From: Arthrobacter globiformis
Lineage (GTDB): Bacteria; Actinomycetota; Actinomycetes; Actinomycetales; Micrococcaceae
DNA: 64,000 nt
Assembly: GCF_003261175.1 (NCBI RefSeq)
Contig: NZ_QLNP01000017.1
Location: 1-64,000, forward strand
Direction of reading: 5' to 3'
The notes beneath the pieces were generated by a model. That model was given only the letters and a program-made list of their open reading frames with translations. It had not been told where the DNA came from and made no database searches. A program made the position numbers and the translations under genes. Positions within the stretch are counted from its first letter, which is position 1, and the number at the start of each line of letters is the position of its first letter. Shown in pieces: positions 16,082 through 57,726 of the stretch.

Positions 16082-17479
16082 CTAGTGGGCGACGCGGGGC
16101 GCTATGGCGACCGCGGCTACGGCGATCACCGCGGTCAGCACGAAGACGCCGGCGAAGGAGGCCGCCGTCGTCGTAAATGCCGTGAACACGATTCCCGTGG
16201 CGGCGAGCGCGAGGGCACCGCCCAGGGAATCGGAAATGGACATCGCGGAGCTGTTGAAGCCTTCCGTGTCCGGCGTGGAAAGGGCCAGCGTCATCACGCT
16301 CAGCCTTGGATACGCCAGCCCCATCCCGCCGCCGGCAAGCACCCAGCCGGCAATGGCGATGGCGGCCGGCCAGCCAAGCGCCGTCGTCACCAGCGCCAGG
16401 GCAATCGCCAGCAGCACCATCACGGAGCCGATCCGCACGGCGGCCGGGCTGGCCAGCCGCCCGCCCAGACGGCTCTGGACGCCCGACGCCGCTGCCCAGG
16501 CGAGGGCTCCGCCGGTCAAGGTCAGACCGGCGAACGTTGGCGAGAAGGCGTAACGCTCCACAAGCAGGTACGGCAGGTACACCTCGGCACCGAAGAAACC
16601 GGCCGCCACCAGCCCGCGGATCAGGATCACGCTGGGCAGGCCCCGCCGGGCGGTGAGGGTTCCGCGCGGCACCAGCGGCCTGACGGCCAGCAGGGCAATC
16701 ACGACGGCGGCCCCCGCCGCGAGCGGTCCGGCCACCGGAAGCCCGGCGGACAGGTTCAGGCCCAGCACCGCCAGCGCGGCCAGGGCCGCCCAGGCGAGCC
16801 GCCCCAGCGCCCAGGGCACCTGCCCGCCCACTGCATCTGAACCGTTCCCCTTCGCTGCGCCGTTCCCGTTCGCGTTGCCGGACCGGACGCCGCGCAGCGC
16901 GGGAAGGAGCATCGCCACGGCGGGGAGCACCAGCACGACGACTCCGAGGAACACCCAGTGCCAGCTCGCCAGCTGGGCCACAAGCCCGGCGGCGAACGGC
17001 CCCACAAGGGACGGGATGACCCACGCGGCGGAGAAGGCGGCGAAGATCTTGGGATGCAGGACCGGCGGATAGACCCTGGCCACCACCACGTACAGGGCCA
17101 CCGTCATGGCGCCGCCGCCCAGCCCCTGCACCAGCCTGCCGGCCACCACGGCCCACATCGTGCCGGCCGTCCCCGCCACGAGCAGTCCCAGCGCGAAGAC
17201 CGCCACGGAGGCGAGTAGCGGGCCGACGGGCCCGCGCCTGTCGGACCAGTTTCCGGCGCCCACCATGCCGATCACACCGGTGGCCAGCGGGCCGGCGAAG
17301 GCGAGCGCGTACAGGCCGGCCCCGCCAAGCTCCCGGCTCACCACGGGCATGACGGTGGTGACGGCGAGGGACTCGAACGCGGCGAGAAACACGAGGGCGC
17401 AGGCCCCCACGGTCACCAGCACGTAGGGCCGCTGGAGGATTCCGGCGCCGGGTGGAGCGGACACGGCAGATTCGTGCAT
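16082..17479 (-). CDS. MFS transporter, drug-efflux type
   Basis: The protein is 465 aa with 12-14 hydrophobic helices. It has a motif-A-like loop (GNWSDRRGPVGPLL) and the helix-4 arginine GRLVQGLGGGAM typical of drug:H+ antiporters. A short Asn/Gly-rich insert (GNANGNGAAKGNGSD) sits in the central loop. It starts 2 bp after the stop of the Lrp/AsnC regulator gene on the same strand, so the regulator probably controls this exporter. The substrate is not predictable. Confidence 0.86.
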   Translation of the reverse strand: MHESAVSAPPGAGILQRPYVLVTVGACALVFLAAFESLAVTTVMPVVSRELGGAGLYALAFAGPLATGVIGMVGAGNWSDRRGPVGPLLASVAVFALGLLVAGTAGTMWAVVAGRLVQGLGGGAMTVALYVVVARVYPPVLHPKIFAAFSAAWVIPSLVGPFAAGLVAQLASWHWVFLGVVVLVLPAVAMLLPALRGVRSGNANGNGAAKGNGSDAVGGQVPWALGRLAWAALAALAVLGLNLSAGLPVAGPLAAGAAVVIALLAVRPLVPRGTLTARRGLPSVILIRGLVAAGFFGAEVYLPYLLVERYAFSPTFAGLTLTGGALAWAAASGVQSRLGGRLASPAAVRIGSVMVLLAIALALVTTALGWPAAIAIAGWVLAGGGMGLAYPRLSVMTLALSTPDTEGFNSSAMSISDSLGGALALAATGIVFTAFTTTAASFAGVFVLTAVIAVAAVAIAPRVAH

Positions 17480-46911: not shown

Positions 46912-49299
46912 TCAGACGGGGGCCGGAACCGTGGGCCAGCTGGCTTCCCCGGCCAGCTCTTCGGCCCGCGGCAGCGGATCCAGGTGGCTGATGCCCGTGG
47001 GCGTGATCTGCAGGACCCGGGCAGTGGCGATGTCATAGAACAGGCCCGTTACATGGACATCGCCGCTCCGGACGGTGTCCTTCAGGCTGGCGTGCTGCTC
47101 CAGCCGTTCGAGCTGGACGGCAACGTTGACCATGGCCAGCTGGTCCACCGCGCCGTACCCGGCCTGCTCGGCTGCAACCTGGACGGGGTGGCCCGCATGG
47201 AACGACTCGAGGCTCGGCCGGCCGTGGTCCAGCCAGGACTCGACGGGGCAACGTTCCTCCTGCCCTTCGGGGCTCTGGCCTGAGAGCTGCTGGCCGGGGG
47301 CCTTCTGGTCCGACTCCGCCCCGGCAGGTCCGGCGAGCAGGGCTGTCATGGCGCCGCAGCCGGAGTGGCCGCATACCACCACCGACGTGACCGACAGCTC
47401 GTCGAGGGCGAACTTCAGCGACGCCTCAACGGACGGTTCGAGGCGGTCACTCCCCACCACGTTGCCCACGTTCCGGACCGTGAACAGGTCCCCCGGGCCG
47501 CTGCTGGTGATCAGGTTGGGCACCAGCCGGGAATCGGCGCAGGTGATGAACAGCGTGTCGGGGTCCTGGAACGTGGACAGCTCCTGGACGTGCGGACGCA
47601 GCAGGTGGGCGTGGCGGCGGTGGTAGCTGTCCACGCCGTTAAGCACCGACCGTACCGGGGCCGGGACATGCCCGGCTGCCTCAGCGGCCAGCGGCGCAGC
47701 GTCCCGCTGCCAGCTCCGCCACGGCGCGAAGCCGCCGCGCAGTGCGGAGCGCGACGAGCCGCGTGCGGGGGTTCCCGCCACGGCGGCGTGGAGCGTGGCG
47801 GTGCCGGTTTCCTCGATCTCCACACTGCCGCCGTTGTTCACGTGCCGCACGCGCCAGGCCTCCAGGGTGTCGTGCACCGGGTGGTCGAGGTAGTCGACGT
47901 CGAGCTCCACCGTGACATGCGCCGCCGGCGGCACCGCGGCCAGCACCTTGCTCAGGCGGGGAAGCGACAGGAACGTGCAGGAGCCGTCGATGACCACGCG
48001 CCAGCGGCCTTCGGCGGTTCCGCCGAGGGGCTCCGCGTGGATGCTGGCCCGGACTACACGCCACAGGACCAGCAGCACTGCCAGCGCGAGCCCGATCAGC
48101 ACGCCGGCAAGCAGGTTGACGAACACCACCGTGAGCAGCGTGGCGGCATAGACGGCCAGGTCACCGGTGACGCGTGCCGTCTGGAAATCGGCCACCTTCA
48201 CGAGGCGGATGCCGATCATGATGAGCAGCCCGGCCAGCACGGCCTGGGGCACCAGCTGGATGACACCCGCCAGCAGCAGGGAAAAGACCAGAACCCAGAT
48301 GCCGTGGAGGACCGCGGACTTGCGGGTGCGCGCCCCGGCCTCGACGTTGGTGGCACTGCGGACGATCACACCGGTGACCGGGAGGCCGCCCAGCATGCCT
48401 GACGTCACGTTGGCAGCGCCCTGGCCGAGCAGTTCACGGTTGAAATTTGTACGCTCGCCGTGGTGCATCTTGTCGACGGCGACGGCGGACAGCAGCGACT
48501 CCACGCTCGCCACCAGGGCGATGGTGACGACGCCGACGGCGATGGCGGTCCACTCCCCCTGCGGCAGGTGCGGAAGGGCAAGGGCGTCCAGCAGCGAACC
48601 ATCGAAGGTGATCCGGTCGACGTCGGAATTGAACGGGAGGGACAGCAGCGTCGCGGCCACCACGGCCACCAGCGGGCCGGGCACGCGGCGGACGGCGGCC
48701 GGCATGTGCTTCCACGCGACGAGCAGTGCGATCACCACAGCCCCCAGGAACGCGGCCTGCGGATCCACGGCGGCCAGGCTGTCCGGCAGTGCCACGATAT
48801 TGTGGAGCGCCGCTTCACCGGCTTCGCTGCCGAGCATCACATGCAGCTGCTGCAGGACAATGATGATGCCGATCCCGGCAAGCATCGCGTGCACCACCAC
48901 CGGCGCAATGGCAAGCGCCACCCGCCCCACCTTGGCCATACCCAGCAGTACCTGGAGGACGCCGGCGGCCACGGTGATGGCGCAGGTGACGGGCCAGCCG
49001 AACTGCTCGATGAGGCCGGCGACGATGACCGTCAGGCCTGCTGCCGGGCCGCTGACCTGCAGCGGCGAGCCGCCGAGGGTGCCGGCAACGATGCCTCCCA
49101 CTGCGGCCGCGATCAGTCCCGCCATAACCGGCGCACCCGACGCCGCGGCGATGCCGAGCGACAGCGGAACGGCAACGAGGAACACCACGAGGGACGCCGG
49201 CAGGTCCCAGCGGAGGCCCGTGGTCAGGCGTGCCAGGACTGGTATCCGGCTCCTGCCGGGGTGGATGGGTTGTGGATCCGTGGCGGCTGGCGAGGGCAT
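46912..49299 (-). CDS. SulP anion transporter fused to STAS and beta-carbonic anhydrase
   Basis: The protein is 795 aa from the ATG at 49299 (AAGGA 7 nt upstream); GTG at 49335 would add 12 residues. The first 420 residues are a SulP membrane domain (GTLGGSPLQVSGPAAGLTVIVAG; NRELLGQGAANVTSGMLGGLPVTG). A STAS-like domain follows (GRWRVVIDGSCTFLSLPRLSKVL). Residues about 540-795 are a beta-carbonic anhydrase with zinc ligands in CADSR (about 584) and HSGCGA (about 643). It should import bicarbonate or a related anion and interconvert it with CO2 on the cytoplasmic side. A Gln/Gly-rich insert follows HSGCGA. Confidence 0.93.
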   Translation of the reverse strand: MPSPAATDPQPIHPGRSRIPVLARLTTGLRWDLPASLVVFLVAVPLSLGIAAASGAPVMAGLIAAAVGGIVAGTLGGSPLQVSGPAAGLTVIVAGLIEQFGWPVTCAITVAAGVLQVLLGMAKVGRVALAIAPVVVHAMLAGIGIIIVLQQLHVMLGSEAGEAALHNIVALPDSLAAVDPQAAFLGAVVIALLVAWKHMPAAVRRVPGPLVAVVAATLLSLPFNSDVDRITFDGSLLDALALPHLPQGEWTAIAVGVVTIALVASVESLLSAVAVDKMHHGERTNFNRELLGQGAANVTSGMLGGLPVTGVIVRSATNVEAGARTRKSAVLHGIWVLVFSLLLAGVIQLVPQAVLAGLLIMIGIRLVKVADFQTARVTGDLAVYAATLLTVVFVNLLAGVLIGLALAVLLVLWRVVRASIHAEPLGGTAEGRWRVVIDGSCTFLSLPRLSKVLAAVPPAAHVTVELDVDYLDHPVHDTLEAWRVRHVNNGGSVEIEETGTATLHAAVAGTPARGSSRSALRGGFAPWRSWQRDAAPLAAEAAGHVPAPVRSVLNGVDSYHRRHAHLLRPHVQELSTFQDPDTLFITCADSRLVPNLITSSGPGDLFTVRNVGNVVGSDRLEPSVEASLKFALDELSVTSVVVCGHSGCGAMTALLAGPAGAESDQKAPGQQLSGQSPEGQEERCPVESWLDHGRPSLESFHAGHPVQVAAEQAGYGAVDQLAMVNVAVQLERLEQHASLKDTVRSGDVHVTGLFYDIATARVLQITPTGISHLDPLPRAEELAGEASWPTVPAPV

Positions 49300-49667
49300 A
49301 TAAGTCCTTAGCTCGTTCGAAGGGTCCTTATCCACGCTATTGACGCCCCCGCAGAGGCCGCAAGGAGACGGCCCGTGAGAAGAAACACGAGGTCAGAGCG
49401 GTCATAATGCGAAAACTCGGCACTAATCCATTCGTTTGCATAAAAGCCGCATTGCTTCACCAGGGGCAGTTCCCCATGCCGCAAGGGGTCCCCGGCGCGA
49501 AGGAAGACCGGCCGCCGTTCAAGTCACATTGAGGCCGGACCCGTCCGACGCCGGATCAGCCGGCAAAGATTTAACGTGCCGGAAATCTTTGGCAGCAGCG
49601 CTTAAATGGCAATGGATCCATCCGGGGACGGATCCATTGCCTAAAGCCGGCTTGTCGGCGGGCGGTT
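49300..49667. other. 368-bp gap between SulP fusion and apnO
   Basis: No gene is visible. It is locally AT-rich around 49,400-49,450 (GTCATAATGCG, TTTGCATAAAAG), which probably holds the promoter of the SulP gene. AAGATTT and AAATCTT (about 49567-49589) form an inverted repeat, and a strong hairpin follows at 49608-49641. Confidence 0.5.
49608..49641 (-). terminator. Hairpin downstream of the apnO operon
   Basis: A perfect 12-bp stem GGCAATGGATCC/GGATCCATTGCC with a 10-nt loop lies 26 bp after the apnO stop on the minus strand. No T-run follows except ATTTAAG. Confidence 0.65.
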
Positions 49668-50528
49668 TTAGCGCTTGACGGCGTCCAGCTTCAGCATCTT
49701 GGCGATGACGTGGTCCAGCTCGGAGTCGTCGAAGATCTTCTTCCAGTCATCCTTGATGATGGTGTCCTTGCCGTACTGGATGGCGATTTCGCAGGCCTCG
49801 GAGAACGGGTTGGAGCCGCGCAGGGCGTTGGTGAGGGCGATCTGCACATGGCCGAACAGCATGGCCTTGGCAGCTTCCTCGGGCACGCCGGCGGTGTGGA
49901 CGGTCTCGTGAAGGGCTTCGTTGAGCAGGGTGCCGATCATGCACGCCACGGTCTCCACGAGGGTGGGCTCGAGGATGGCGAGCTGCTTCACAGTGACCCA
50001 GTGGACGTCGATCACGGGGGCATAGATGACCTTGATGGTGGCCTCGGCTGCAGCCTTTGTGTCCTCGGAAGCGTCCTCGTCGATCGCGGCGACGACGTTC
50101 TGCGGGGCGCCCTCGCCGCCGAAGGTATCGGCCCATTCCTCCTTGGTGGTGCGCTCCAGGAACACGGACGGGTGGCAGGGGTGCGCCACGGCCTGGACGA
50201 CGTCCTCGCGCTGGGCGAGCAGGCCTGCGTAGGCGGCGGCCGGGTCCAGGGTGAGCAGGATGGCGCCGGACTTCATCTGCGGGACGACGCCTTCGGACAC
50301 GACGCCCAGGACGGTGTCCGGAACGGCGAGGATCACGACGTCGGCGCCCTTGACGGCGTCGTCGGTGGCGGTGATTTCACGGCCTTCGGCACGGACGCGG
50401 TCCTGGCCGGCGGGTGAGTTCTCGGAGTAGAAGACGGTGTGGCTGGACTTCTGGAGGTTGCGGGAAACGCGCATCCCCATCTTGCCTCCGGCTCCGATCA
50501 CGGCAACGGTCAACTGTTCTGCAGACAT
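49668..50528 (-). CDS. apnO: Probable D-apionate oxidoisomerase
   Basis: The protein is 286 aa with an N-terminal Rossmann fold (VAVIGAGGKMGMRVSRNLQKS, residues 8-28) and VVILAVPDTVLG. A C-terminal all-helical domain follows (ILEPTLVETVACMIGTLLNEALHETV, ALTNALRGSNPFSEACEIAIQYGKD), of the phosphogluconate-dehydrogenase-like DUF1932 type. The ApnO family, with this layout, turns D-apionate into 3-oxo-isoapionate with NAD+. It is the last gene of a five-gene run, 1 bp after the TIM-barrel gene. The assignment rests mostly on the operon set; a 3-hydroxyacid dehydrogenase with another substrate is the alternative. Confidence 0.75.
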   Translation of the reverse strand: MSAEQLTVAVIGAGGKMGMRVSRNLQKSSHTVFYSENSPAGQDRVRAEGREITATDDAVKGADVVILAVPDTVLGVVSEGVVPQMKSGAILLTLDPAAAYAGLLAQREDVVQAVAHPCHPSVFLERTTKEEWADTFGGEGAPQNVVAAIDEDASEDTKAAAEATIKVIYAPVIDVHWVTVKQLAILEPTLVETVACMIGTLLNEALHETVHTAGVPEEAAKAMLFGHVQIALTNALRGSNPFSEACEIAIQYGKDTIIKDDWKKIFDDSELDHVIAKMLKLDAVKR

Positions 50529-50529
50529 T

Positions 50530-51345
50530 TCATTTGCTCCTTAGGAAATCGAGGCTTTGCTGGGTCCACTGGTTTTCGAGGCGGATGGTTTCGTCCTCGG
50601 AGTCCTGCCACGGCAGCCAGTGTTCGACGATCTGGTTGATGTTTCTTTCTTTGGGCTGAAGCTTCCGGGCCATGTAGTCGTAGTCCAGAAGGCCTTCGCC
50701 GAGCGGCGCGCCGGAGTATGTAAAGCCGACCCACCCCTCCTTGCGGCTGAACGCAAAGTCTTTGATGTGCATGTTCAGGACGTGGGGCGCGACGGCGTCA
50801 ATCACCTCACGCGGCGACTCCAGGGCCGCCACGGTGTTGGCCGGGTCGCTGCACACGCCCAGGTACAGGCTGCCGACGCGCTCCACGACCTCCAGGATCC
50901 GGGACGTGGGAACCTGCTCGTAGGTCTCCAGCGCGATCCGCACCCCAGCGGCCTTGAACTCGGGCAGGATCTCGGTGAAGATCTCCACCGCCTCGTCCGC
51001 CGTCGGGGTGTGGCCCGGGACGTTGAACATGGTCCGCAGCAGCGGCGCACCCAGGATCTTGGCGATGTGCAGGAACCGGCGCAAGTGCTCGGGCCGGATG
51101 CCCTTGGTGCCCAGTTCCAGGCTGATCCCGAGCGAGTCCGCGGTGGCCCGCACGGCCCGCAGGTCGTCGTCGGCCATGGTTTCCAGCGGTGCATAGTCGC
51201 AGATCTGGAACAGGTCCACACCCAGCGCCGCGGTCCGCTCGAGCGCCTCGTGGATGCTCAGCGGCTTGCTCACCTTGTCGGAGAGCTGCCAGAAGAACGC
51301 GTAGCTGCTCAGGCCGATCCGTGAACCCGGTCCAACCCGGCTCAT
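50530..51345 (-). CDS. oiaC: Probable 3-oxo-isoapionate decarboxylase (xylose-isomerase-like TIM barrel)
   Basis: The protein is 271 aa from the ATG at 51345, which overlaps the preceding stop by 4 bp. It is an AP-endonuclease-2/xylose-isomerase-like TIM barrel with metal-ligand strands IALETYE, GVCSDPAN, LNMHIKDFAF and a DYAPLET loop. In the D-apionate route this fold supplies the enzyme that decarboxylates 3-oxo-isoapionate to L-erythrulose. Generic annotation would be sugar phosphate isomerase/epimerase. The gene order next to apnO, lerI, derI and lerK supports the specific call. Confidence 0.7.
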   Translation of the reverse strand: MSRVGPGSRIGLSSYAFFWQLSDKVSKPLSIHEALERTAALGVDLFQICDYAPLETMADDDLRAVRATADSLGISLELGTKGIRPEHLRRFLHIAKILGAPLLRTMFNVPGHTPTADEAVEIFTEILPEFKAAGVRIALETYEQVPTSRILEVVERVGSLYLGVCSDPANTVAALESPREVIDAVAPHVLNMHIKDFAFSRKEGWVGFTYSGAPLGEGLLDYDYMARKLQPKERNINQIVEHWLPWQDSEDETIRLENQWTQQSLDFLRSK

Positions 51346-52184
51346 GCTGCCACCTCCAGGAGCCCAAGGCGCGCTGCGGCTTCGTCGAGGATGTCGCGGA
51401 CGGCTGCCGGGTTGTGGGCGAAGCGGCCGAGGAACAGGCCGGCGACGGCGGGGCCGAGCTGGCTGATGAGGCCGGGGCCGGCGCTGCCGCCGTAGATGAC
51501 CCGGCTGGCTTCCTGGCCTGCGCGGCTGTGCAGGTGGGCGTCCAGTCCGGTGATGACTTCGCTGATGAACTCCGGCGTGGCCGGTTCGGGTGCCCCGATT
51601 GCCCACTGCGGCTCGTAGGCCACGATGGTGCGCCCGGTGCCTCCGAGGCTTCCGGCACGGTTCAGGACGCCGTCGATTTCGCGGATGCAGTGCTTGATGG
51701 CGTCCGCCGCGGTGCCGCGGCCGGGTTCGCCCACGCACAGCACCGGGGTGAGGCCATTGCGGTAGGCCGCAGCGGTCTTCAGCCCGATCACGTCGTCGTC
51801 CTCGCCGAAGATGCGGCGCCGTTCGGCATGGCCCACCTCGGCGTACCGGCCGCCGGTTTCGGCCACCATCTTTCCGCTGACCTCGCCGGTGAAGGCGCCC
51901 TCGTCCTCCCAGAAAATGTCCTGGGCACCGGCCGCCGCACCGGCGGCGGACAGGATCCGCGCGCACTCGGGCAGGACCGGGTGGGCCGGCAGGGCGAACA
52001 GTTCAATGTCGCCGCTGCGGACGGCCGGATGGGCCGAGGCGATTTCAGCCACGTCCCGGCACCAGTCCAGGGTGCGCTCGTAGCCGAAGTACATCTTCAG
52101 GCTGACGCCGATGATCGCCTTCGGGCGGGTGGAGCCGGATGAACCGGCGGCCGCTCCAGCGGAGGAATTAGCAGGAAGTGACAC
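51342..52184 (-). CDS. lerI: TPI-family isomerase (probable L-erythrulose-1-phosphate isomerase)
   Basis: The protein is 280 aa from a GTG that overlaps the derI end by 17 bp. It is a triosephosphate-isomerase fold: SLKMYFGYE (substrate lysine), VGHAERR (catalytic His), [16 protein letters not shown] (catalytic Glu and loop 6), YGGSAGPG and LFLGRFAH. Loop sequences differ from glycolytic TpiA, and a 25-residue low-complexity Ala/Ser/Gly N-terminal extension is present. In this context it should convert L-erythrulose 1-phosphate to D-erythrulose 4-phosphate. Confidence 0.82.
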
Positions 52185-52638
52185 CCTCGTAGTCCTTAAT
52201 CAGGGTGACCTTCTCGGCGGAGGCCGAGGACTCGTCAAAGGTGTACGTCAGCCATTCCTTGGCCAGGCGGCGGGCGAGTTCCAGGCCCACGACGCGCTGA
52301 CCGAAGGTCAGGACCTGGGCGTTGTTGCTCAGGATGGAGCGTTCAACGGAGAAGCTGTCGTGCGCGGTGACGGCACGGACGCCGGGGACCTTGTTAGCGG
52401 CGATCGCCACGCCCAGGCCCGTGCCGCAGACCAGCAGGGCGCGGTCGGCCTTGCCGGCGGCGATGAGTTCGGCGGCGGCGATGGCCACGGACGGGTACGG
52501 GGTGTGGCTGGTGGCGTCCACCCCGACGTCGGTCACGGACGCGACCAGTTCGGACGCTTCCAGGTCTGCCTTCAGGGCTTCCTTGTACTCGAATCCGGCG
52601 TCGTCGGAACCGATGACCAGGCGCAGTTTGGCGCTCAT
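52168..52638 (-). CDS. derI: RpiB/LacA-family isomerase (probable D-erythrulose-4-phosphate isomerase)
   Basis: The protein is 156 aa, usual for the RpiB family. [22 protein letters not shown] is the N-terminal strand, [44 protein letters not shown] holds the catalytic Cys, and [25 protein letters not shown] completes the site. In the tetrulose route this enzyme makes D-erythrose 4-phosphate, which enters the pentose phosphate pathway. Its start overlaps the kinase stop by 4 bp. Confidence 0.85.
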
Positions 52639-54398
52639 GCGTTCTCCTTAGTGGTGGTTGCTGCAGATTTCGCCTCGGCGAAGGTGTTGTGGATGGCGCG
52701 GACGATCAGTGCCATGGATACAGCGCCGGCGTCCGGGGTGCCCAGGCTCTTCTCGGCGTGCGGGCGGGCCCGGCCCATCAGGGGCAGCAGGTTCGCGGTT
52801 TCCTCCGCGGCCTCCTGGGCCACGGTGGCTGCCGTGCCCCAGGCGTCGGTGAGGGACTGCCCCGAGCCGACGGCGGCGGACAGGGCGTCGCGGAACGGAA
52901 CCAGCACGTCCACCAGGGTCTTGTCGCCCACCTTGGCCTTGCCAAAGCCCATGATCGAGGCGGCGGCCTCGGCCACTCCGGCGGCGACAGCGCCGCCGTC
53001 GGGCGTGTTGCTGTTCCCGACCGCGTCCCCGACGGCCCGCAGGGCCATGCCCCACAGTGCACCGGACGTGCCGCCGGCACGGTCGGCCCAGGCGTCGGCG
53101 GCAAGGTGCAGGGTGCTGGCCGCACCGGCACCGCGTTCGACGGCGTCCGTTGCGGCCTCGACTGCGGCCCGGACTCCGCGCTCCATGCCGATGCCGTGGT
53201 CGCCGTCGCCGGCGACCGCATCGATGCGGCCCAGTTCCTCGACGTTGGCGTCAACAACGTCCTTGGCGGCGGCGAGGGCGGCCAGGACACGGACTGCGGC
53301 GGCACGCGACTCGTCCGTGGCTTCCGGAATGGCCGTGGCCTCGGCGGACAGTTCGTCGGCGTTCAGGGCAGCAGTGTCGAGGGCTGCGGCCGTGACGGCG
53401 CCGCGGCGGAAGGCCGGCGCGTCGGCGGGTGCGTTCCAGAGGGTCTCCAGTTCCTCGTCGAGCCAGAAGAGGGTCAGCGAGGTGCCGGCCATGTCGAAGC
53501 TGGTGACCAGCTCGCCGACCTGCGGGTCAACGGCTTCGAGACCGGCCTCGGCCAGGAGCTGGGCGACGCGGCGGTAAACCACGAACAGCTCCTCGTACTT
53601 CACGCTGCCCAGGCCGTTGAGGATCGGGACCACGCGGGCACCGGCAACAGAGAGCCCGTCGGGGACTTCGGTGAGGAGCTTGGCCACGAGCAGCTCGGCG
53701 AGCTCATCCGCCGTCGGGATGTCCGTTTCATCGATGCCGGGCTCACCGTGAATGCCCATGCCCACGGCCATCCGCCCCCCGGGGACGGTGAACAGCGGGT
53801 TTTCGGCCCCGGGAAGGGTGCAACCGGTGAACGCGACGCCGAAGGACCGGGTGCGGTCATTGGCGCGTTCGGCGATGTCGACCGTGGCGTCCATGCTGTA
53901 GCCGGCCTCGGCAGCGGCGGCCGCGACCTTGAAGACCGTCAGGTCCCCGGCGATGCCGCGCCGCTTGGCGCGCTCCTCGAGCGGGGCGGAGGAAACGTCG
54001 TCGGTGACGGCGATGCTGCGGCAGTCGATGCCCTCACGGCGGAGACGCTCCTGCGCCTGGGTGAAATGCAGGACGTCACCGGCGTAGTTGCCGTAACCCA
54101 GCAGGACGCCGGCGCCGTTGTTCGCAGCCTTGGCCACGCTGTAAACCTGCTGCGCCGAAGGGGACGCGAAGAGGTTGCCCATCGCGGCACCATGCGCCAG
54201 GCCCTGGCCCACCAGCCCGGCGAACGCCGGATAATGCCCGGAACCGCCGCCGATCACCAAAGCCACCGTGTCCGCGGTGCTCTTCGTGCTGCGGGCCACG
54301 CCGCCATTCACGCGACGGACCCAGCGTCCGTGCGAGGCAACAAAGCCCTCGATCATCTCATCAGCGAACGCTGCGGGTTCATTGAACAAGCGGGTCAT
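52635..54398 (-). CDS. lerK: DhaK-DhaL fusion kinase (probable L-erythrulose kinase)
   Basis: The protein is 587 aa with AGGAG 7 nt before the ATG. The DhaK half carries [30 protein letters not shown] and the covalent substrate His in MGIHGEPGI. The DhaL half (from about residue 380) has the ATP/Mg motif [16 protein letters not shown] and [19 protein letters not shown]-dependent single-chain Dha kinases of this type include L-erythrulose and D-erythrulose kinases. The isomerases that follow favour L-erythrulose as substrate, made by the TIM-barrel decarboxylase. Confidence 0.85.
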
Positions 54399-54471
54399 TG
54401 CGGTTTCTCCTGGGCCTATCAGTGGAAATCGTGGGGAAGCTGCGGTTGAAGCCGCCTCGGGGTGGTGGTGA

Positions 54472-54537
54472 CCCAACTGACCGGCAGTTGTTGTCGTTAT
54501 GGCCGTCCAAAACGACAACAACTGCGAGTTGGTTGGG
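54472..54537. repeat. 66-bp palindromic repeat, copy 2
   Basis: CCCAACTGACCGGCAGTTG and onward to TTGTCGTT pairs with AACGACAACAACTGC and GAGTTGGTTGGG. It has the same length as the copy at 21281-21346 and near-identical arms. It lies inside the operon, between the transporter stop and lerK, where it could reduce read-through to the kinase and downstream enzymes. Confidence 0.85.
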
Positions 54538-54547
54538 CGGGCCGCGC

Positions 54548-55912
54548 CTACGGCTCGGAGTGGTGTCCGGCGCCGGCGGGATCCAGCGCCTCGGCGGCGA
54601 TGCCCTCGCTGACCTTGCCGGAGCGGCTCAGCGCCACCATCAGGATGCACGACAGGAGCATGAAGCCGCCGACGACGAACATCGGGACCGTGTAGCCGCC
54701 GGTCCAGTCCTTGAGCCAGCCGGTGATGTAGCCGGCGCTGAAGCCCGCCAGGTTGCCGACCGTGTTGATCAGGGCGATGCCCGCCGCGGCGGCTGCGCCG
54801 GTGAGGAACTGGGTGGGAACGGTCCAGAAGTTGGGCAGCGCGGCGAAGATGGACATGGCCGTGATGGTGATGACGGCGATGGTGGCTGCCGGGGAACCGG
54901 CGAACAGTGCCAGCGGGATGCTGAGTCCGCCGACCAGGGCAGGAATGGCAATGTGCCAGGTCTTGACGCCCCGCTTGGTGGCGTCCTTGGACCAGAAGTA
55001 CAGGGCGATGGCTGCCGGCAGGTACGGGATCGCGGTGATCAGGCCCTTCTGGAAGACATCGAACTTGGCGCCGTAGATGCCTTCGAAGCCGGCGATGATG
55101 GTGGGGAGGAAGAAGCCGAGGGCGTAGAGGCCGTAGATAAAGCCGAAGTAGATTGCGGCGAGCATCCAGACGCGGCCGTTGCCGAAGACGGTGCGGACGC
55201 TGACGTGCTTGTTGCTGGCGGCGGTTTCCTTCTTTTCCTTCTCCAGTGCACCGGTCAGCCAGGTCTTTTCTTCGGCCGTGAGCCACTTGGCCTTCGCCGG
55301 GGAGTCCGCCAGGTAGAACCAGGCAATGACGCCGATGATGATCGCGGGGACGGCAACGCCGAAGAACATGACCCGCCAGCCTGCGAGGCCGAAGAGTCCG
55401 TGCTGCTGGATGAGGAGGCCGGCGAGCGGGGCACCGATGACGGTGGTCAGCGGCTGGGCCAGGTAGAAGAGGGCAAGGATCTTGCTGCGGTGCCGGGCCG
55501 GAACCCAAAGGCTCAGGAAGAGGATGGCGCCCGGGAAGAAGCCGGCTTCGGCCACACCGAGGATGAAGCGCAGGATGTAGAGCTGCTCAACGTTTCCGAC
55601 CCACGTGAACAGGAGCGAAACGATGCCCCAGCTGACCATGATGCGGGCCAGCCAGCGCCGGGCGCCGAACTTGTGCAGGGCCAGGTTGCTGGGGACCTCG
55701 AGCAGGATGTAGCCGATGAAGAAGACACCGGAAGCGAAGCCAAACTGCGCCGCGGAGAGGGCGAGGTCTGTGTTCATGCCGTTGGGGCCGGCAAAGGAGA
55801 TGGCCGTGCGGTCCAGGTAGTTGATGAAGAACATCAAAGCGACGAACGGCACCAGCCGGATAGCCACTTTCCTGATTGCAGATCTTTCGACCACCGATTG
55901 TGTGGTGTCCAC
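54548..55912 (-). CDS. MFS transporter, anion:cation symporter (ACS) family
   Basis: The protein is 454 aa with 12 helices. The N-terminus RLVPFVALMFFINYLDRTAISFAGPNGM is the ACS signature (the NYLDR motif of sugar-acid and phthalate transporters), and GVAEAGFFPGAILFLSLWVPARHRSK is the helix 4-5 motif. ACS transporters import organic anions, which fits a sugar acid such as D-apionate rather than a polyol. It is the first gene of the minus-strand operon and diverges from the GntR regulator. Confidence 0.9.
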   Translation of the reverse strand: MDTTQSVVERSAIRKVAIRLVPFVALMFFINYLDRTAISFAGPNGMNTDLALSAAQFGFASGVFFIGYILLEVPSNLALHKFGARRWLARIMVSWGIVSLLFTWVGNVEQLYILRFILGVAEAGFFPGAILFLSLWVPARHRSKILALFYLAQPLTTVIGAPLAGLLIQQHGLFGLAGWRVMFFGVAVPAIIIGVIAWFYLADSPAKAKWLTAEEKTWLTGALEKEKKETAASNKHVSVRTVFGNGRVWMLAAIYFGFIYGLYALGFFLPTIIAGFEGIYGAKFDVFQKGLITAIPYLPAAIALYFWSKDATKRGVKTWHIAIPALVGGLSIPLALFAGSPAATIAVITITAMSIFAALPNFWTVPTQFLTGAAAAAGIALINTVGNLAGFSAGYITGWLKDWTGGYTVPMFVVGGFMLLSCILMVALSRSGKVSEGIAAEALDPAGAGHHSEP

Positions 55913-56042
55913 ATTGACTCCTAGATGTTGGTATCCCCGGCCGCGTCCTGCTCTGGATGCTTAGGGGTTGTCTCATGCCCTCCGCCGGCAGGAGACCGGC
56001 ATTGGCTACGCGTTGTGAGATCAACCATACGACCGGAACGGC

Positions 56043-56060
56043 AAATTGGTCAACCGGTTG
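56043..56060. promoter_or_regulatory. GntR-family operator 1
   Basis: AAATTGGTCAACCGGTTG contains the near-palindrome GGTCAACCGGTTGAC. It matches the second copy at 17 of 18 positions. Confidence 0.8.
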
Positions 56061-56092
56061 ACGGGTTTCCCCTGCGCAGCCGTTTGCCCCGG

Positions 56093-56110
56093 AAATTGGT
56101 CAGCCGGTTG
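56093..56110. promoter_or_regulatory. GntR-family operator 2
   Basis: AAATTGGTCAGCCGGTTG starts exactly 50 bp after copy 1 and ends 1 bp before the TACCCT -10 box of the regulator gene, so binding here would block its own promoter. Confidence 0.8.
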
Positions 56111-56111
56111 C

Positions 56112-56117
56112 TACCCT
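56112..56117 (+). promoter_or_regulatory. -10 box TACCCT, leaderless-type
   Basis: TACCCT ends 6 nt before the ATG at 56124, directly beside operator 2. Confidence 0.5.
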
Positions 56118-56123
56118 TAAAAG

Positions 56124-56867
56124 ATGTCCGCAAACTCCGCCGCCGCCACGGCCAAGATCAGCGCCGCGCTAGGCCCCATGGAACAAGGGTCGGTGGTGTC
56201 CGAGGTCGCGGAACGCCTGCTGGCCTACTTCACCAGCGGGGATATAGCGGCCGGCACCAGGCTTCCTGCCGAACGGACGCTTGCAGCCTCCCTCGGCGTT
56301 GGCCGGTCCGCAGTCCGCGAAGCGTTGGCGGCCCTGGAGATCCTGGGCATCGTGATCGTGCGGCCGGGCTCCGGCACTTATCTGCGGGACGGAGTCTCGG
56401 AGCTGCTGCCCCGGACCCTGAGCTGGGGCCTTATGCTGGGCGCCCCCCGCACCCGCGAGCTGGTGGAGCTGAGGAGCGGGCTCGAAGTGCAGGCTGCGCA
56501 GCTGGCGGCTGAACGCATCGACGATGCGGCGCTGGACCGCATGCGCGCCAACCTGCAGACCATGGAAGATAACCTCGAGGACCTGGCCGCGTTCGTCGAG
56601 GCGGACGCCGCGTTCCACCGGGAGATCGCCGTCAGCTCGGGCAACCAGGTGCTCCGCGAGCTGCTGCAAAGCATCCGCTCGCTGCTCCGCATCTGGGTGG
56701 ACCGGGCACTGACCGACGAAGGCCATGCGGCCGCGGCGCTGAAGGAACACCGCGAAATCCTCACAGCCCTCGAGGCCCATGATCCCGCTGCCGTCACCGC
56801 CACCATGCGTTCACACATGCAGACTGCCACCCGGCGGCTGCTCGCGGGGTTCGACGCCGCCCAGTAG
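56124..56867 (+). CDS. GntR-family regulator with FCD domain
   Basis: The protein is 247 aa. Residues about 25-95 form the winged helix (LLAYFTSGDIAAGTRLPAERTLAASLGVGRSAVREALAALEILGI). The FCD effector domain follows, with metal/ligand residues in the RSGLEVQAAQLAA and AFHREIAVSSGN segments and the closing EHREILTALEAHDPAAV. It diverges from the ACS transporter operon, and two matching operators stand between them, so it should control the transporter-lerK-derI-lerI-oiaC-apnO operon and itself. A sugar acid or phosphorylated intermediate is the probable effector. Confidence 0.92.
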   Translation: MSANSAAATAKISAALGPMEQGSVVSEVAERLLAYFTSGDIAAGTRLPAERTLAASLGVGRSAVREALAALEILGIVIVRPGSGTYLRDGVSELLPRTLSWGLMLGAPRTRELVELRSGLEVQAAQLAAERIDDAALDRMRANLQTMEDNLEDLAAFVEADAAFHREIAVSSGNQVLRELLQSIRSLLRIWVDRALTDEGHAAAALKEHREILTALEAHDPAAVTATMRSHMQTATRRLLAGFDAAQ

Positions 56868-56875
56868 GGCGCGCG

Positions 56876-57157
56876 ATGCTGCCCAACTATGGGGGTTCGT
56901 CCCTAGGAAATCTCGAAGGCCGCGACGCGAGTCTGATTTCCATGCTCAATGACCACGGAATCCGGGAAGCCCTGACGGAGCTTGAGAGCGAGCAGCGGGA
57001 CGTCCTGGTGGCACTTCACTACTGCCGGCTCACGGTGGCCGAAGCGGCAGTGCAGCTGGGCATTCCCGCCGACTCGGTAACCCACCGGGCGCTTGCCGCG
57101 CTGCGTACCCTGCGCCGGCTCCTTGACCAACGTAGCGCCGGCCAGAACCTTCCGTAG
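56876..57157 (+). CDS. Free-standing sigma-70 region 4-like protein
   Basis: The protein is 93 aa. From residue 25, LTELESEQRDVLVALHYCRLTVAEAAVQLGIPADSVTHRALAALRTLRRLLD closely resembles region 4 of the ECF sigma factor at 25454-25954, but region 2 is absent. It starts 8 bp after the GntR stop. The region-4 HTH is intact in frame, so this is not an obviously decayed gene. It could bind -35 DNA or an anti-sigma factor without core promoter melting, or be a remnant of a sigma gene duplication. Confidence 0.72.
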   Translation: MLPNYGGSSLGNLEGRDASLISMLNDHGIREALTELESEQRDVLVALHYCRLTVAEAAVQLGIPADSVTHRALAALRTLRRLLDQRSAGQNLP

Positions 57158-57183
57158 CGCCGCACGCCCAGTGGTTGCGGCGT

Positions 57184-57726
57184 CTATGAGCCGGGCGAAG
57201 AAGGTCCGGGCGAAGAAGGGGCGGCCAGCTGCGCACTGACCTCACCGGCCCACGAATCGATGGCGTCCCAGTCACGGAGGTCACCGAACCTCCCGCCGGT
57301 AAGACGGAACAAGCCCCGGAGCATGGCCGGCATCTGGGCGGCCTGGTAGACGCCGGAGAACAGTTTGTGGTCTCGAAGCGGGACCTGTGGCCGCAAATAC
57401 TGTGCCAGGCGTTCCTGCTGCAGGGCTGCACCGCGCGCCCGAAGAAACTTGGGCAGCCCATCCGACATCCCCACGCTGAAACACCACACCGGCATCCCGT
57501 CCAGCTCGGCGGAGAAACGGCTGACAAAGGACACGGCTGCGGGCAACCATTCCTGGTTATGAATGGCGCTGCCCAGGATGACGGCGTCGTACCCGGAAGC
57601 AGCCTCGACATCGTCCACCGGCCGGCACTCAACATCGTTCACGGCATTCCGCACACCCGAGGCAATGCGTTCCGCGATCTCGGCGGTGGACCCGAACGCG
57701 CTTGCATAGGCAACCAGGACGGACAT
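57184..57726 (-). CDS. Flavodoxin-domain protein
   Basis: The protein is 180 aa from the ATG at 57726; a 26-residue extension has no support. The N-terminal FMN-binding loop reads VLVAYASAFGSTAEIAERIA, and the second FMN loop is GYDAVILGSAIHNQEWLP. The family includes HemG-like menaquinone-dependent protoporphyrinogen oxidase; the C-terminal QMPAMLRGLFRLTGGRFGDLRDWDAIDSWA region is like actinobacterial flavodoxins of unknown partner. It is divergent from the cupin gene. Confidence 0.85.
   Translation of the reverse strand: MSVLVAYASAFGSTAEIAERIASGVRNAVNDVECRPVDDVEAASGYDAVILGSAIHNQEWLPAAVSFVSRFSAELDGMPVWCFSVGMSDGLPKFLRARGAALQQERLAQYLRPQVPLRDHKLFSGVYQAAQMPAMLRGLFRLTGGRFGDLRDWDAIDSWAGEVSAQLAAPSSPGPSSPGS

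Follow-up and report, generated by a model that had tools for sequence, protein, structure and literature searches.

A putative D-apionate catabolic operon with a major facilitator superfamily importer and GntR-type control in Arthrobacter globiformis

The genome of Arthrobacter globiformis (assembly GCF_003261175.1; 4.88 Mb, 99.98% complete) carries, within a 64,000-nucleotide stretch of contig NZ_QLNP01000017.1 (positions 1 to 64,000; hereafter the window), an operon of six genes and a divergently transcribed regulator gene (49668-56867), and we interpret the operon as probably serving the degradation of D-apionate. A first-pass annotation, made from the sequence alone, had described six same-strand genes of one catabolic route with a divergent GntR regulator in an Arthrobacter-type genome; all seven open reading frames proved to be intact, Pfam and NCBIfam models fit the families assigned, and the nearest relatives in a tree of the putative oxidoisomerase come from Arthrobacter sp. 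ISL-65, A. globiformis, and A. sp. AFG20. Together, the six genes on the minus strand (49668-55912) make up a single operon, which encodes, in order of transcription, (i) a major facilitator superfamily (MFS) transporter of the D-galactonate/HpaX-like type (54548-55912; PF07690, MFS_1), the proposed D-apionate importer; (ii) a single-chain DhaK-DhaL kinase with an ATG start (52635-54398; PF02733, Dak1, and PF02734, Dak2), the proposed L-erythrulose 1-kinase (LerK); (iii) an RpiB-family isomerase (52168-52638; PF02502, LacAB_rpiB) in the position of DerI; (iv) a triosephosphate isomerase (TIM)-family isomerase (51342-52184; PF00121) in the position of LerI; (v) a xylose-isomerase-like TIM barrel (50530-51345; PF01261, AP_endonuc_2, 70.9 bits), the proposed 3-oxo-isoapionate decarboxylase (OiaC); and (vi) a dehydrogenase with Rossmann and PGDH_C domains (49668-50528; PF16896, 193.7 bits, and PF03446, 37.1 bits), the proposed D-apionate oxidoisomerase (ApnO). 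By their coordinates, the LerK and RpiB genes overlap by 4 nt, the RpiB and TIM genes by 17 nt, and the TIM and OiaC genes by 4 nt, and 1 nt separates the OiaC and ApnO genes. The gap between the MFS and kinase genes is 149 nt; a perfect 15-bp inverted repeat with a 12-nt loop, noticed by eye within it (54484-54525), is perhaps a partial terminator or a processing site. On the plus strand, a GntR/FCD regulator (56124-56867; PF00392 and PF07729) is encoded, which we propose to be a repressor.

A single sigma-70-like site was found across positions 49300-57200 (shuffled sequences gave a mean of 0.6, standard deviation 0.8); this site, TTGACC-18 nt-TATGGT at 56024-56053 on the minus strand, is the predicted operon promoter. 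Its -35 hexamer is overlapped by the palindrome GTCAACCGGTTGAC (56049-56062), a putative operator that is conserved upstream of the MFS gene: it occurs with at most one mismatch in all 32 Micrococcaceae loci that cover that stretch (29 of them exact) and, with at most two mismatches, in 9 of 34 non-Micrococcaceae loci, all nine actinobacterial and none from Pseudomonas or Enterobacterales. The exact palindrome is found once in the genome, at 56049-56062. In most Arthrobacter loci the GntR/FCD and MFS genes are transcribed divergently, and the GntR/FCD protein would repress the operon through the palindrome over the -35 hexamer until released by a compound of the pathway. A second, weaker operator-like site, GTCAGCCGGTTGCT, lies just 5' of the GntR start (56099-56112), and its sequence and position suggest autoregulation. 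We considered and rejected a regulon beyond the operon; allowing one mismatch, the operator occurs at one other place in the genome (C33:32384), compared with five matches per strand for a backward-read control, and the region around that place (L109) has no match to apionate genes except at 26-29% identity to the apiose dehydrogenase ApsD. At the other end of the operon, a 15-bp hairpin 3' of the ApnO gene (49608-49641, minus strand) is a terminator candidate on the basis of folding (-35.1 kcal/mol for an 81-nt stretch, z -4.35, with 0 of 200 shuffles equal); it is absent from a consensus terminator scan, probably because a T run after the hairpin is lacking.

The branched sugar apiose occurs in the cell walls and glycosides of plants, and D-apionate is the acid made from it. 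Judging from sequence comparison, we put at about 0.77 the probability that the operon forms a self-sufficient unit for D-apionate catabolism, leading via 3-oxo-isoapionate and L-erythrulose to erythrose-4-phosphate. The MFS protein would import D-apionate; ApnO, judged by family and context, would oxidise it and shift its hydroxymethyl group to yield 3-oxo-isoapionate; OiaC, on the same grounds, would decarboxylate this beta-keto acid to L-erythrulose; and LerK, the LerI-type TIM protein, and the DerI-type RpiB protein would convert L-erythrulose to erythrose-4-phosphate. A D-apionate-like to erythrose-4-phosphate route had been put forward by the first-pass annotation, and it is upheld here in that the families fit and that some Pseudomonas and Microbacteriaceae loci encode ApsD, the lactonase ApnL, and/or an apiose-type binding protein next to this operon. 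The accompanying suggestion was that the transporter suits an acid better than a polyol; the MFS protein is nearest to acid-transporter models (best NCBIfam match TIGR00893, D-galactonate transporter, 278.8 bits, under its cut-off of 395), and the operon has no polyol dehydrogenase.

With regard to the two enzymes that define the route, the putative ApnO combines the Rossmann and PGDH_C domains characteristic of this assignment, has 5t57 as its best PDB match (E 2.1e-64), and is 41% identical to ApnO of the apiose locus of Rhizobium sp. N1341 (L088). In a tree of 67 ApnO sequences (83 gathered, 16 Micrococcaceae rows dropped for thinning), 63 OiaC-linked and four rhizobial-type rows lie on opposite sides of one long branch with a support of 99. 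OiaX is present in the stretch for three of the four rhizobial-type rows; the stretch from Sinorhizobium meliloti (L087), also with a rhizobial-type ApnO, has no OiaX or OiaK match. Across both types 56 positions are conserved, including H116 and H119 of an HPCHP stretch, and 27 positions are fixed in OiaC-linked ApnO yet different in all four rhizobial-type proteins compared. The proposed OiaC is a PF01261 barrel for which no NCBIfam model reached its cut-off; its gene is accompanied by ApnO in 78 of 80 related loci, and no match to OiaK or OiaX was found in the window or in any of the 80 loci (the remaining genome was not searched), as expected if OiaC replaces these two proteins. Residues E140, D167, H193, and E241 are invariant across 38 aligned OiaC sequences (chosen from 81; L072 was dropped for a stop in its stretch) and by inference form a metal site. 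An OiaC homologue is also encoded without ApnO in Leucobacter weissii (L054, 1950-9005), where its neighbours are a four-carbon acid sugar kinase (PF07005/PF17042), an aldo/keto reductase, LerK, TIM, and, by eye, a TRAP-type permease; this may represent a different use of the OiaC family.

The kinase carries both PF02733 and PF02734 in one chain and scores above the cut-off of NF011049 (740.4 bits; cut-off 492). Three TIM proteins are encoded in the genome, the strongest of which (C13) scores 297.7 bits, compared with 168.7 bits for the protein in the window; by this comparison the latter is not the canonical triosephosphate isomerase (TPI) of the genome. Among solved structures it is closest to 3s6d, a putative triosephosphate isomerase, followed by 11ef, an L-erythrulose-1-phosphate isomerase, and it retains the K, H, and E that we take to be the TIM active-site residues. 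Identity to the corresponding proteins of L088 is 37% for the TIM protein (LerI) and 40% for the RpiB protein (DerI). In Escherichia coli, a tetritol dehydrogenase combined with LerK, LerI, and DerI supplies erythrose-4-phosphate (PMC10733421), which agrees with the earlier naming of these three genes as a tetrulose-phosphate module. In four loci (L033, L043, L047, and L056) the stretch retrieved has OiaC and ApnO (plus MFS, save L043) but no trio, which suggests that the three genes can be separated from the rest as a module. Two further loci of the same genome encode LerK-type kinases. One (L096; C29:250000-268000) is a second operon of like design, with TIM, MFS, short-chain dehydrogenase/reductase (SDR), 3-hydroxyacyl-CoA-type dehydrogenase, RpiB (71% identity), LerK (57%), an AP_endonuc_2 barrel, and a GntR-like gene, and may represent a related pathway that acts on another acid. 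The other (L097; C57:38000-56000), perhaps a tetritol locus, has a third LerK-type kinase (52%), an ATP-binding cassette (ABC) transporter, a GolD/DthD-family SDR (335.6 bits, cut-off 286), and a xylulokinase-like kinase.

The related loci referred to here are the best 80 of 220 OiaC relatives from a scan of 84,980 species genomes; genes in them were called with a simple open reading frame heuristic and counted as present by fixed identity and length limits, and several lie on short contigs, where a missing gene does not equal a loss. As all six core genes occur in 61 of these loci, and OiaC with ApnO in 78, the grouping of the operon goes beyond chance. Micrococcaceae account for 39 loci and other actinobacteria, Pseudomonas, and Enterobacterales for the remainder; the taxa include Arthrobacter, Pseudarthrobacter, Microbacteriaceae, Streptomyces, Saccharopolyspora, Actinoplanes, Pseudomonas, Pantoea, Erwinia, Enterobacter, and others, some with incomplete loci. 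Where it was found outside Micrococcaceae, the MFS protein is 68-78% identical to that of the window, which suggests one shared transported substrate. Within the genus, OiaC (called at E <= 1e-70) was detected in 49 of 150 sampled genomes, our strain included. The samples of 150 drawn for OiaC, ApnL, and the SDR, three in all, had matching genome labels and were treated as a single set. In Pseudarthrobacter sp. AL07 (L052, 8258-9402) just short pieces of OiaC and ApnO are found, and the operon there has apparently decayed. Among the papers listed in our literature searches, none dealt with an apionate operon of Arthrobacter.

Genes that would make the acid from apiose accompany the operon in part of its range; among the 80 loci an ApnL homologue is present in 20, a Gfo/Idh apiose dehydrogenase in four, and an apiose-type binding protein, as in the rhizobial locus, in seven. 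ApsD (52-53% identity) and the binding protein adjoin the operon in four Pseudomonas loci (L049, L050, L053, and L059), two of which (L050 and L053) show the order MFS, LerK, RpiB, TIM, OiaC, ApnO, ApsD, then ABC genes, then an ApnL homologue clipped by the end of the stretch. Two Microbacteriaceae loci (L075 and L078) have the binding protein (61-63%), ApnL, and an SDR with the operon, and an ApnL homologue lies beside the operon in part of the Arthrobacter loci. When a part of the candidates per genome was scored for ApnL (8) and SDR (18), the 150 genomes of the genus sample yielded ApnL in 32 and the SDR in 20; OiaC and ApnL occur together in 23 genomes (Fisher p 2.9e-7, a value made too small because the genomes, all from one genus, are related). 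Growth on D-apiose is reported for a strain that carries ApnL, ApsD, ApnO, OiaK, and OiaX genes (PMC11747546). In our strain, an Arthrobacter ApnL query gave 0 matches in the whole assembly, the same query matching 17 of 26 related genomes; a search with the Gfo/Idh apiose dehydrogenase returned 22 weak matches, with an identity of 28% for the best; and no SDR match was found at E <= 1e-70. Because ApnL, the SDR, and a good Gfo/Idh match are all missing from this genome, the likely input is the acid itself or some other upstream route; a lack of apiose dehydrogenase and lactonase, with the acid as input, had been proposed from the window, and the searches of the whole assembly fit this. About half of the related operon-bearing genomes also encode a lactonase homologue, and many an SDR, which would make the acid from apiose, and the strain studied here, lacking both, probably imports apionate that other organisms produce or that arises extracellularly.

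The SDR found in relatives is a candidate D-apiose dehydrogenase because in the genomes sampled it always co-occurs with ApnL and, in L075 and L078, sits with ApnL and the apiose-type binding protein. Among 26 Micrococcaceae genomes with OiaC, chosen from the 39 Micrococcaceae loci, ApnL is present in 17 and the SDR in 15, all within those 17 (Fisher p 1.8e-5, likewise too small owing to kinship). The Gfo/Idh enzyme was detected at E <= 1e-40 in none of these 26 genomes, in a search that included no known-positive genome; the query, taken from a Pseudomonas locus, is 53% identical to its rhizobial counterpart. All 20 genus genomes with the SDR have ApnL and 19 have OiaC; in the twentieth (G158, L123) the operon is present with OiaC split over frames. 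The arrangement of these genes varies: in three Arthrobacter loci (L112, L114, and L116) an ApnL homologue adjoins GntR and is followed by the SDR gene (10997-11752 in L112), in L113, L115, and L117 ApnL adjoins GntR without an SDR, in L118 and L119 the ApnL-SDR pair stands apart from the operon, and in one genome ApnL and SDR are on different contigs. The L118 stretch also holds a lone 95-aa ApnO fragment (17036-17323; 93% identical). No NCBIfam model reached its cut-off for the SDR among the 25 best matches listed. We tentatively suggest, at somewhat less than even odds, that the SDR of Arthrobacter and Microbacteriaceae is an undescribed, non-orthologous D-apiose 1-dehydrogenase that replaces the Gfo/Idh enzyme, that the MFS protein imports D-apionate specifically, and that strains such as the present one retain only the acid half of the pathway and live on apionate from their neighbours; the SDR is possibly the part that could be new.

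Several observations weigh against assigning the operon to D-apionate. Two actinobacterial ApnL homologues that were tested score 207 and 212 bits against an ApnL model with a cut-off of 750, 26 of the 49 OiaC genomes in the genus sample have no ApnL match, and 9 of the 32 ApnL genomes have no OiaC match. Six of these nine were inspected; one is the genome with the split OiaC, and in the other five (L120, L121, L122, L124, and L126) ApnL occupies a fixed spot near genes that look hut-like by eye, with no operon in the stretch. (At this spot an arginase-family gene, its name tested for L113, and a permease-like gene are found; in L113 and L117 the two also border ApnL together with the operon.) The predicted ApnO falls, at 41% identity, in a clade separate from rhizobial ApnO; the proposed OiaC assignment draws on family and genome context; and the RpiB protein is under the DerI cut-off (NF051858, 141.3 bits; cut-off 240) and passes a ribose-5-phosphate isomerase model (TIGR02133, RPI_actino, 205.5 bits; cut-off 168.2), though by context it may work like DerI while lying outside the DerI model. 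The long branch in the ApnO tree, the 27 type-specific positions, and the many OiaC genomes without ApnL would also be consistent with an operon that degrades another branched or C5 acid (or lactone), the 3-oxo form of which is decarboxylated to a ketotetrose by an ApnO and OiaC of shifted specificity. We consider this unlikely, as some Pseudomonas and Microbacteriaceae have ApsD, ApnL, and the apiose-type binding protein adjoining the same operon, and the two types of ApnO have 56 positions in common.

Two further readings start from the kinase and isomerases. The trio matches that of tetritol catabolism (PMC10733421) and could in principle serve erythritol, threitol, erythronate, or threonate via LerK, LerI, and DerI; such a role is very improbable here, given an operon that lacks a polyol dehydrogenase, an importer nearest to acid-transporter models, and other LerK-type loci in the genome, one of which (L097) has an ABC transporter and a GolD/DthD-family SDR. 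Even less credible is a triose route that starts from a C4 acid, reaches dihydroxyacetone by oxidation and decarboxylation, and continues with phosphorylation by DhaKL and isomerisation by TPI. The DhaKL and TIM families do take their names from trioses, but this scheme leaves RpiB without a role, the TIM protein of the window is divergent and has an L-erythrulose-1-phosphate isomerase among its solved kin, and another DhaK/DhaL-type match exists in the genome, at C32.

If D-apionate degradation is the correct interpretation, about a third of the sampled genus (the 49 of 150 genomes with OiaC) can use the acid of apiose via a compact operon that is also present in Pseudomonas and Enterobacterales, and the locus offers a testable importer, a regulator-operator pair, and, in relatives, a candidate new dehydrogenase. 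Beyond the terminator candidate, the window encodes on the minus strand (46912-49335) an 807-aa protein in which a SulP-type anion permease is fused to a beta-type carbonic anhydrase domain (PF00916 and PF00484).

The operon can be compared with several known or related systems. The locus of Rhizobium sp. N1341 (L088), in which RefSeq names OiaX, the ApnL model is exceeded (1063 bits; cut-off 750), and OiaK has its best match at 473.5 bits, under a cut-off of 700, resembles the operon of the window in ApnO, LerI- and DerI-type isomerases, an FCD/NanR-type regulator, and nearby DhaK and DhaL genes. It differs in having a sugar ABC importer, ApnL, a Gfo/Idh protein that we take, from its place, to be ApsD, and a kinase and RuBisCO-like OiaX in OiaC's stead. 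Plasmid clusters of Erwiniaceae (Erwinia E602, L003, and Pantoea At-9b, L004) share the order MFS-LerK-TIM-OiaC-ApnO at 52-75% identity but have a divergent RpiB (49-50%) and a SorC-like sugar-binding regulator; in Pantoea a transketolase adjoins the cluster. Other neighbours of the Pantoea cluster, ABC and SMP-30-like genes among them, were rejected as members of the set, being at most 32% identical to anything in other loci, except that the transketolase and regulator are common to other Enterobacterales and one small gene recurs in L065. D-apionate degradation through OiaC was reportedly described by Carter et al. in 2018 (Nat Chem Biol 14:696; cited in PMC13001218), and that route likewise runs through ApnO, the xylose-isomerase-family OiaC, LerK, LerI, and DerI to D-erythrose-4-phosphate; the operon described here differs from it in its MFS importer, its GntR/FCD regulator with an operator of its own, and a genome without ApnL or a good ApsD match. 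Tetritol catabolism, as presented in PMC10733421, also leads through a kinase and two isomerases to erythrose-4-phosphate, but it is fed by a polyol dehydrogenase, whereas the operon described here would be fed by an acid decarboxylase. The pathway itself is already known, and this operon is a new member of it, in which import is assigned to an MFS protein and regulation to a GntR protein.

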